Shown piece by piece: positions 35,574-38,634 of a stretch of 64,000 bases of DNA. The stretch is from positions 1 to 64,000 of the forward strand of contig CAMJDT010000002.1 of NCBI GenBank assembly GCA_946404495.1, in the 5' to 3' direction. The DNA comes from an uncultured Bacteroidales bacterium. GTDB lineage: Bacteria > Bacteroidota > Bacteroidia > Bacteroidales > Paludibacteraceae. The first letter of the stretch is position 1, and every line of letters begins with the position of its first letter. The notes beneath the pieces are model-generated. The model saw nothing but the letters and a program-made list of their open reading frames with translations, was not told the origin of the DNA and made no database searches. Both the position numbers and the translations under genes were made by a program.

Positions 35574-36986
35574 GTGAGTTATTCGTTTCGTACATATTAT
35601 CCCTATTACCGGCGCAACCTCAAGTTGGCCTTTCCGGTGATGCTGACGCAGTTCGGAGCTGCGTTGGTCGGTCTTGCCGACTCCATTATGGTAGGTCACT
35701 ACAGCACGGCGGACTTGGCGGCGGTCAGTTTCTCCAATGCCTTGTTCTTTACCGTCATGGTCTTTTCGATGGGGGCGCTTATGGGTATAACGCCGCTGGT
35801 CGGTAACGTCCACGGACGTCTGGAACAGCTGCTCGCCGACGGCACTACGGACTCCGAGATTGCCCACAAGCATGAGCAGATTACCTCCTATTTCATCAAC
35901 GGTCTGGTCTTCACGGTCCTCATGTGCATCTTCTCCTTGCTCATTCTCGCTCCTTGCATCGGCTGCCTCGATGCCTTCGGTCAGGAACCAGCCGTGGTTC
36001 GTTGCGCGCGACCCTACTACATCCTCATCGTCCTATCCATCGTGCCCTTTCTGCTTTTTACTTTCAGTAAACAGTTCCTCGAGGGGCTCGGCAACACCAC
36101 CGTTGCGATGCTGATCACCATTGGTTGCAACCTGCTCAATATCTTCCTCAACTGGCTCTTCATCTTCGGTCACTGGGGCTTTCCCGCGCTGGGAGCGGAG
36201 GGAGCAGGCTGGGCGTCGCTCATCGCCCGCTGCCTGATGCCGGTGTGTTTCTTCGTCGCAATGCTTTGCAAGGCCGATTGGCGCCGCTACCTCACGTCGA
36301 TTCGCAGCTATCTCATCACCCGTCGCCAAGTGCAATACCTCATCACCCTTGGCGTCCCGATCGGTTTGCAGTCTTTCGCCGAAGCCTTCCTCTTCACGGC
36401 TTCGTTTGTTATCATCGGTTGGATCAGCAAGGAGTCGCTTGCGGCGCACCATATCGCCAACCAAATGGCCGATCTGACCTTCATGCTGGCGCTTGGCATC
36501 GGTTCGGCTACCACGATCCGCGTCTCCCACCAGCTCGGCAAGGGCGACCTCCAAGCCGTGCGCCTGGCGAGTCACGCGTCGGTGCATCTCTGCCTTCTGA
36601 TGAATACCATCGGCGCGGCCATTATGATCTTCGGACGCAACCTGATTCCCTATATCTTCACCGATGATCCCGAAGTTATTCCGATCGCTTCGACGCTGCT
36701 CATCATTGCCGGCACGTTCCAGTACGCCGACGGACTCCAATGCATCGGAGCCGCGATGCTGCGTGGCATTCAGGATGTGCGCGTGCCGATGCAGATAGCT
36801 TTGTTCGCGTATATCGGCGTTGCGCTCCCGTTAGGTCTCGTGCTCACCTTCCCCTTGGGTCTCGGCGCCAAAGGTATGTGGATATCCTTCGTCATCGCCC
36901 TCGCCATCCCCGCCGTCCTCTTCCACATCCGCTTCCATCGCCAACTCACCCGCCTCCATCGCCAACTCCCCCGCTTCCATCGCTAA
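35574..36986 (+). CDS. MATE family efflux transporter
   Basis: AFPVMLTQFGAALVGLADSIMVGHYSTADLAAVSFSNALFF; GTG start at 35574 just after a TAATTTTG element. Confidence 0.92.
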   Translation: MSYSFRTYYPYYRRNLKLAFPVMLTQFGAALVGLADSIMVGHYSTADLAAVSFSNALFFTVMVFSMGALMGITPLVGNVHGRLEQLLADGTTDSEIAHKHEQITSYFINGLVFTVLMCIFSLLILAPCIGCLDAFGQEPAVVRCARPYYILIVLSIVPFLLFTFSKQFLEGLGNTTVAMLITIGCNLLNIFLNWLFIFGHWGFPALGAEGAGWASLIARCLMPVCFFVAMLCKADWRRYLTSIRSYLITRRQVQYLITLGVPIGLQSFAEAFLFTASFVIIGWISKESLAAHHIANQMADLTFMLALGIGSATTIRVSHQLGKGDLQAVRLASHASVHLCLLMNTIGAAIMIFGRNLIPYIFTDDPEVIPIASTLLIIAGTFQYADGLQCIGAAMLRGIQDVRVPMQIALFAYIGVALPLGLVLTFPLGLGAKGMWISFVIALAIPAVLFHIRFHRQLTRLHRQLPRFHR

Positions 36987-37020
36987 CTCACCCGCCTCCA
37001 TCGCCAACTCCCCCGCCTCT
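36929..37020 (+). repeat. 21-nt minisatellite (about 4.4 copies) spanning the MATE gene 3' end
   Basis: CCGCYTCCATCGCYAACTCMC at 36929, 36950, 36971, 36992, partial at 37013. Confidence 0.95.
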
Positions 37021-37050
37021 CGTAACATTTTTTGTGCGATTGTTGCAAAA

Positions 37051-37088
37051 ATATTTGCATATATCAAAAAAATGTTGTATCTTTGCAG
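37051..37088 (+). promoter_or_regulatory. Bacteroidota-type promoter of the RAYT-like gene
   Basis: ATATTTGCATATATCAAAAAAATGTTGTATCTTTG; -7-like element 37078-37085, 4 nt before the ATG at 37090. Confidence 0.75.
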
Positions 37089-37089
37089 C

Positions 37090-38457
37090 ATGAATACGAG
37101 CGATGATATTTTCGCGGGACGTTTGTCCCGCGCAGTAAACGAAGAGAATTCGCTTTCGTCCCCTTCTTCGGACAATCGTCCGAAGCCCTCTTCGTCCCCT
37201 TCTTCGGACAAACGTCCGAAGCCCGTTTCGTCCCCTTCTCGGAATAACCATTCCGAGCCCGTTTCGTCCCCTTCTCGGAATAATCATTCCGAGCCTTCTT
37301 CGTCCCCTTCTTCGGACAAACGTCCGAAGCCCTCTTACTATGCTCCCATCAAGCGCAATACCCTTCGCCGTAAGGAAGGCCATGATTACTACTCACCCTC
37401 TATCTATCTTATTACCGTCTCTACTTTCGATCATCAGCGCCTCTTAGGTACCTTAGTGGGCGATACTGCGGATGTGGCTAAGATTGTGCCTACAACGCTC
37501 GGAAATAGTGTTATTAATCTCTTTAAAGGCATCGAAGCTTATGTGCAGGATAAGACAGGCTGCCATGTGCAGATATTACAGTACCAACTCATGCCCGATC
37601 ATTTTCATGGTATCATTCATATTAAAGATCGGCTCCCTTCCTCTCTCCCCTTAGGACGTATCATCGGTCGTTGGAAAGGAGCTTGCTCGCGTGTATTTTG
37701 GGCTTCCTCCTCTCCTTCTTCGTCCCCTTCGTCGCCCTCTGCTTTGTCTTCGTCCCCTTCTTCGGACAAACGTCCGAAGCCCGTTTCGTCCCCTTCTTCG
37801 TCCCCTGCTTTGTCTTCGTCCCCTTCTCGGAATAATCATTCCGAGCCTTCTTCGTCCCCTTCTTCGGACAAACGTCCGAAGCTCCCTCCTCTCTTCTCGG
37901 ATGGCTTCAATGATCGCGTCCTTAATCGTCAGGGACAATTGCAGCATTGGATTACCTATCTTCGTAATAATCCCCGCCGCCTTTGGATTAAGTACCATTT
38001 CCCGGATAGATATCGTAAGAAACACGAGTTCGCGGCAGGTAAGAACCGCTATCCCTACACAGCGATGGGCGAGTCATTTCTGGTAACTTACCCGGAGAGG
38101 GTACAGGTGCGTTGCCATCGTAATTTAAGCGATGCCGAGATACAAGCCGAGGTGGCCCGTTACCTGGACTTGGCACGCAGTGGGGTAGTGCTCGTTTCAC
38201 CTTTTATCTCGCCTGGCGAGAAAGCCGTCTATGAAGCTTGTTACGCGGAGCATTTAAAGATGATTCGTATCATCAATAGAGGCATCGACGGACAATTCAA
38301 GTTCCCCTCAGGACGTGATCTGGAGGGCTGTTATGCGGGCTTTCTGCTTGTCTTAGCACCTTATATGGAAGGCGCTCCGGAGACTGCTGACGTGCGTATC
38401 TCCCGCGCCCAATGTCTCAATTTGAATGCCTTTGCCGAGGACCTCGCTACAATCTAA
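37090..38457 (+). CDS. REP-associated (Y1/IS200-like) tyrosine transposase with in-frame repeat arrays and C-terminal conserved domain
   Basis: HUH motif LMPDHFHGIIHI, GRIIGRWKGACSRVFW, GFNDRVLNRQGQLQHWITYLRNNPRRLWIK; C-terminal LVSPFISPGEKAVYEA...GRDLEGCYAGFLLVLAPYM. Confidence 0.82.
   Translation: MNTSDDIFAGRLSRAVNEENSLSSPSSDNRPKPSSSPSSDKRPKPVSSPSRNNHSEPVSSPSRNNHSEPSSSPSSDKRPKPSYYAPIKRNTLRRKEGHDYYSPSIYLITVSTFDHQRLLGTLVGDTADVAKIVPTTLGNSVINLFKGIEAYVQDKTGCHVQILQYQLMPDHFHGIIHIKDRLPSSLPLGRIIGRWKGACSRVFWASSSPSSSPSSPSALSSSPSSDKRPKPVSSPSSSPALSSSPSRNNHSEPSSSPSSDKRPKLPPLFSDGFNDRVLNRQGQLQHWITYLRNNPRRLWIKYHFPDRYRKKHEFAAGKNRYPYTAMGESFLVTYPERVQVRCHRNLSDAEIQAEVARYLDLARSGVVLVSPFISPGEKAVYEACYAEHLKMIRIINRGIDGQFKFPSGRDLEGCYAGFLLVLAPYMEGAPETADVRISRAQCLNLNAFAEDLATI
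37156..37335 (+). repeat. In-ORF array 1: five 36-nt units each with a REP-like palindrome
   Basis: Units at 37156, 37192, 37228, 37264, 37300; palindromes CTTCGGACAAACGTCCGAAG or CTCGGAATAATCATTCCGAG. Confidence 0.97.
37706..37890 (+). repeat. In-ORF array 2: degenerate units with three intact palindromes
   Basis: Palindromes at 37760-37779, 37826-37845, 37862-37881, same consensus as array 1. Confidence 0.95.
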
Positions 38458-38634
38458 TCTCCTTCGTCCCCTTCTCCTTCTAATCATTCCGAAGCCCTCT
38501 TCGTCCCCTTCTTCCTTCGTCCCCTTCTCGTTCTAATCATTCCGAGCCCTCTTCGTCCTCTTCTTCGGACAAACGTCCGAAGCCCTCTTCGTCCCCTTCT
38601 TTCTTCGTCCCCTTCTCGTTCTAATCATTCCGAG
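38456..38634 (+). repeat. Downstream intergenic array 3, mostly half-palindromes
   Basis: TTCGTCCCCTTCTCGTTCTAATCATTCCGAG variants; one intact type-A palindrome at 38563-38582. Confidence 0.93.

Follow-up and report, generated by a model that had tools for sequence, protein, structure and literature searches.

REP-like hairpins in frame within a RAYT-type gene with a predicted DprA-like domain in a rumen Bacteroidales genome

Introduction

Among tnpAREP genes, those of subclass 2.4 have REPs inserted in frame at the periphery of the encoded protein, between its HuH and Y motifs (Quentin et al. 2018, PMC6006769). CGTC-tagged REPs are said to have no association with transposase genes, and intragenic REPs are described in many genes (Di Nocera et al. 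2013, PMC3733652). As both in-frame REPs in RAYT genes (PMC6006769) and intragenic REPs (PMC3733652) have been reported, the phenomenon itself is known, and what is described below is a new variant of it. Rickettsia palindromic elements (RPE) resemble the hairpins considered here in being in-frame protein-coding palindromes located in unrelated genes. RPE are not known to occur inside a matching tyrosine transposase gene.

The locus analysed here belongs to an uncultured Bacteroidales bacterium of the family Paludibacteraceae (assembly GCA_946404495.1) and lies in the first 64,000 nucleotides of contig CAMJDT010000002.1, the whole of which is called the window. One gene of this rumen bacterium is related to enzymes presumed to mobilise short DNA hairpins, and a sequence-only reading of the window had proposed that such hairpins invaded and expanded inside the gene itself.

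Results

A divergent RAYT-type protein

The gene occupies positions 37090–38457 of the forward strand, stop codon included, and encodes a RAYT-type HUH/Y1 protein of 455 aa, as judged from the open reading frame, profile searches and the predicted structure. Just 5' of the start codon lies a promoter-like sequence of Bacteroidetes type (TTTG ... TATCTTTG; 37053–37085, forward strand), read from the sequence and presumably akin to the Bacteroidetes promoter consensus; since an alternative ATG at 37072 falls within it, 37090 is the likely start. Motif comparison among relatives places the HUH motif MPDHFHG at 37591–37611 and the tyrosine motif YLRNNPRR at 37957–37980, both on the forward strand, with H171, H173, Y290, N294 and P295 invariant in the 25 sequences compared. 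The protein thus has the RAYT/TnpAREP arrangement, a Y1 fold in which an HUH motif precedes a Y-x-x-x-N-P tyrosine motif.

The window protein shows weak matches, under the respective cut-offs, to Pfam Y1_Tnp and NCBIfam REP_Tyr_transpos; the curated NCBIfam model (NF047646), the sole family match, scores 26.2 bits against a cut-off of 80. As no other family matches and REP_Tyr_transpos is found in all 25 relatives scanned, the protein is filed as a divergent RAYT-type protein despite this score. Its AlphaFold model retrieves IS608, ISDra2 and the E. coli RAYT 4ER8 in Foldseek, and the RAYT-type identity proposed from sequence is upheld by these structural matches together with the profile matches of the relatives. 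Low dN/dS values in the core (0.07–0.25 in close pairs) indicate that the protein is under purifying selection. A PHROGs search gave no match, and blastn against plasmids gave two weak Bacillus matches only, covering 16–17% of the query. A comparison of flanks among relatives showed no neighbouring sequence in common apart from matches of promoter length. Upstream, at 36929–37033, a tandem repeat with a 21-nt unit (CCGCTTCCATCGCCAACTCAC) makes up the C-terminal end of a MATE gene and extends beyond its stop; as far as seen, it has no relation to the hairpins.

The C-terminal part of the protein (37990–38454, forward strand) is predicted to form a DprA-like domain, modelled alone by AF2 with a pLDDT of 86.7. 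DprA and the DprA-like ShosA account for every one of its Foldseek matches 1–14 (best E 9e-7), with no other significant match, and Pfam and PDB profile searches gave no match at the sequence level. DprA and ShosA share the predicted single-strand-DNA-binding fold of this domain, which is here fused to an HUH transposase; no paper joining DprA with RAYT terms was found in the literature collection searched. DprA-like domains fused to RAYTs also occur in other families of the order, in five full-length relatives (L149, L150, L151, L152 and L153). In a phylogeny with differing core trimming for the tailed and the short set, a clade (support 100/99) unites the tailed proteins; of 12 short Bacteroidales RAYTs, 11 fall outside this clade and one inside.

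Hairpin units inside and beside the gene

Nine REP-like hairpin units lie in frame within 37090–38457, eight forward and one reversed. Array 1 (37154–37329, forward strand) comprises five units in the order A, A, B, B, A with a 36-nt period, in the N-terminal disordered segment, and array 2 (37718–37881, forward strand), which follows helix C and ends before the strand that comes next, has three full units (A, B, A) besides truncated ones. Every full unit of both arrays has an 8-bp stem and a 4-nt loop. The sequence-only reading had called five consecutive 36-nt units in the first array, three more in the second and a palindrome within each; all of this was borne out at the positions given above. 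Its inventory of eight forward units was real and also incomplete, as it missed two features. One is a reversed unit on the minus strand (37113–37144; E=2e-7) with the stem CGCGGGAC/GTCCCGCG, coding for FAGRLSRAVNEE. The other is a downstream non-coding cluster (38462–38634, forward strand) with one perfect unit (38551–38582) and three with broken stems.

Spacings within the gene are all multiples of 3 (36, 36, 36, 36 and 30, 36, 12, 18, 36), whereas the downstream non-coding copies are spaced by 37, 16, 36, 36 and 16. All nine in-gene units keep perfect stems; of the four downstream copies, three have decayed. Chance palindromes were rejected as an explanation, given counts far above expectation: the window contains the flank CTTCGTCCCCTTCT 17 times where 0.04 matches are expected, and the palindromes occur 6 and 8 times against 0.00. 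In the AlphaFold model both arrays fall into disordered segments with pLDDT <50, residues 24–93 and 210–261, the second following helix C (residues 188–207) and preceding a strand at residue 274.

Hairpins across homologues

Perfect hairpins (stem of at least 7) were counted in 40 homologues from related genomes, with expectations obtained by synonymous codon shuffling. The excess is concentrated in the linker between the HUH and Tyr motifs (42 hairpins against 2.1 expected) and at the N-terminus (13 against 0.67); the first part of the core holds 2 against 2.05 expected and the C-terminal part 9 against 4.4. Sixteen of the 40 homologues have no perfect linker hairpin. Relatives bear differing hairpins at the same two places, linker and N-terminus: they keep the palindrome habit and not the peptide, so that a linker peptide retained without its palindrome, named beforehand as counter-evidence, was not what we observed.

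Five of seven stem pairs have changed on both sides among 25 units; these were selected for intact stems, so the 100% pairing is by construction and the both-side changes alone count as evidence. Copy number also changes rapidly. Two near-identical genes (L041 and L042), whose DNA beside and between the arrays is 97–99.5% identical, carry six and two mid-linker units, respectively, and three genes of about 95% identity (L045, L049 and L056) carry four, one and one. In a further homologue (L043) the mid-linker holds the element of L041 on the opposite strand, encoding REAGDGLKK instead of SSPASRDSVEV. Stem covariation, copy-number change and an opposite-strand copy with an unrelated peptide argue that it is the DNA that spreads, and not the peptide.

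Linker hairpin type tracks RAYT relatedness (Mantel p=0.0005), a signal absent among pairs below 50% identity. Such agreement with the RAYT phylogeny could also reflect plain inheritance within the gene.

The linker hairpins carry a CGTC-like tag on one side, about 5–7 nt from the stem and not adjacent to it. In 17 of 25 genes a [CT]GT[CT] tag starts 9–11 nt ahead of the stem, compared with a mean of 5.4 and a maximum of 14 after shuffling, and the canonical GT[AG]G foot is present at the adjacent position in none of the 25 genes with linker hairpins.

Dispersed copies and paralogues

The bacterium's own genome was scanned for hairpins in stretches totalling 536 kb. The exact type A palindrome TTCGGACAAACGTCCGAA occurs at this locus only, but relaxed patterns and a covariance model reveal variants of the stem at 11 other places, where the tag is that of the locus and the loop in most cases also its AAAC, so the absence of palindromes elsewhere in the genome, which the sequence-only reading had set against itself, did not materialise. 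The model yields 22 own-genome matches, 11 at the locus and 11 elsewhere, as expected of dispersed REP hairpins; several dispersed sites had been used in building it, the new ones being C1, C21 (twice) and C26:34143. Across the genus, 29 of 61 genomes contain a match (E<=0.01). Linker excess over shuffles, copy-number change and dispersal together support the earlier proposal that REP-like hairpins invaded and expanded as codon-phased linkers.

Four dispersed copies lie in frame within two DUF3987/BT4734-like ORFs. These primase-type ORFs (L091, 1862–4363, and L090, 446–2866, on contigs C26 and C22) contain in-frame arrays that mix several hairpin families, e.g., FSERLFRAGNEAMIALPAYNAGEMDGENSGLTPGAQ. 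Seven dispersed hairpins (C1:122, C7:24, C11:135, C21:302, C29:494, C32:408 and C60:750) lie within ~800 nt of contig ends. With many copies so placed, the metagenome-assembled genome probably undercounts them, and their positions suggest that REP clusters break the assembly.

All four RAYT genes of the genome bear hairpins, and the type differs among them. The hairpin of one paralogue (L008) is of another type, TGGCGGCA-ATAA-TGCCGCCA, and its flank tag GCCAAATGGAACG has 12 exact and 7 one-mismatch occurrences (control 0). In the other two (L007 and L009), linker and flanks contain hairpins particular to each gene.

Discussion

Origin of the in-gene hairpins

The observations are probably best explained by a REPtron-like locus, in which a RAYT, an HUH/Y1 enzyme acting on single-stranded DNA and here fused to a DprA-like domain, is accompanied by its REP-like hairpin in multiple copies, a large share of which are in-gene, that arose by RAYT-driven arrival, tandem growth and dispersal. 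The hairpins would most likely have arrived via RAYT-driven single-strand transposition and may have been tolerated solely where they lengthen, in phase with the codons, the two disordered stretches that lie beyond the catalytic core. In-gene tandem multiplication could then have proceeded through unequal recombination or slippage, and other copies would have been scattered across the chromosome. We infer that the window RAYT is the enzyme moving the window hairpin. Counting against this reading are the 16 homologues that have no perfect linker hairpin and the lack of the canonical GT[AG]G foot, and the agreement of hairpin type with relatedness may be inheritance within the gene.

A considerably less probable alternative is insertion by another agent, either another RAYT or general recombination; the RAYT linker would then be just one among a number of disordered sites that permit insertion, as in the case of RPE. 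The in-frame copies in the two DUF3987/BT4734-like ORFs fit this, as they imply that a permissive linker may suffice without any special link to the RAYT, and so do the clusters combining several hairpin families. Against it, half of the own-genome model matches are at one RAYT locus, hairpins of differing type are present in all four own RAYT genes, and hairpin type tracks RAYT subclade.

The hairpins might alternatively constitute a feedback device, in which the RAYT would bind its in-gene hairpins at the DNA or mRNA level and the length of the arrays would determine expression. Their position within the gene, the contrast between perfect in-gene stems and decayed downstream ones, and the fast copy-number change are compatible with this, but many homologues have no hairpins and both orientation and site vary. 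Self-regulation and self-targeting, which the sequence-only reading had raised, are conceivable but unsupported, and feedback is improbable as an explanation of the arrays. That the repeats were selected as low-complexity protein linkers, with palindromes as a by-product of codon choice, is hardly credible: the units do encode disordered Ser/Pro-rich peptides and the reading frame is always kept, but the twenty-fold palindrome excess persists against synonymous shuffles, for which peptide selection was rejected, and compensatory stem changes, opposite-strand copies encoding unrelated peptides and non-coding copies downstream and elsewhere all speak against it.

Returning to RAYT-driven spread, it is tempting to speculate, although on balance we doubt it, that a distinct clade of RAYTs bearing a DprA-like fusion acts on CGTC-tagged hairpins and maintains seed copies of this substrate within its own coding sequence. 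If true, CGTC-type REPs, described as lacking a transposase, would be provided with one, and gene and substrate would always travel together. The hairpin types that differ among the paralogues of one genome form a natural set of cases in which to trace each hairpin to the enzyme that moves it, and the same set could show whether CGTC-tagged REPs, reported without a transposase, belong to RAYTs of the window type.

Comparison with known systems

The hairpins described here share with CGTC REPs (PMC3733652) an 8-bp stem, a 4-nt loop and intragenic copies, and their one-sided CGTC-like tag recalls the CGTC/TGTC tag of those REPs. As the tag lies about 5–7 nt off the stem, they are candidate members at most of the CGTC super-family; the first-pair AT and the CCA tail of CGTC REPs were not seen. 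With subclass 2.4 (PMC6006769) the locus has in common the HUH/Y1 core, REP-type sequences flanking the gene and in frame between HuH and Y, and presence in Bacteroidetes, one of several groups in which the subclass is found. Some short Bacteroidales RAYTs (L156, L157, L159 and L161) have repeats or hairpins directly after the HUH motif, fitting subclass 2.4.

The window gene departs from that subclass in several respects. Insertion in subclass 2.4 lies, by the published description, between beta3 and alphaC (PMC6006769), whereas here the N-terminus carries one array and the second, in the predicted structure, lies after alphaC, outside the beta3-alphaC interval. The foot is GT[AG]G in subclass 2.4 and a CGTC-like tag here, and the motif NH[IFV]H is replaced by DHFH; no conserved C-terminal extension is listed for subclass 2.4 (PMC6006769), in contrast to the DprA-like domain of the window protein. 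These comparisons show that RAYT genes capture REPs at a second position within the fold as well, and that this happens in a clade whose members carry a DprA-like fusion. What is new relative to the described systems is the second insertion site, the different tag, the DprA-like fusion and the presence of differing hairpins among the paralogues of a single genome.
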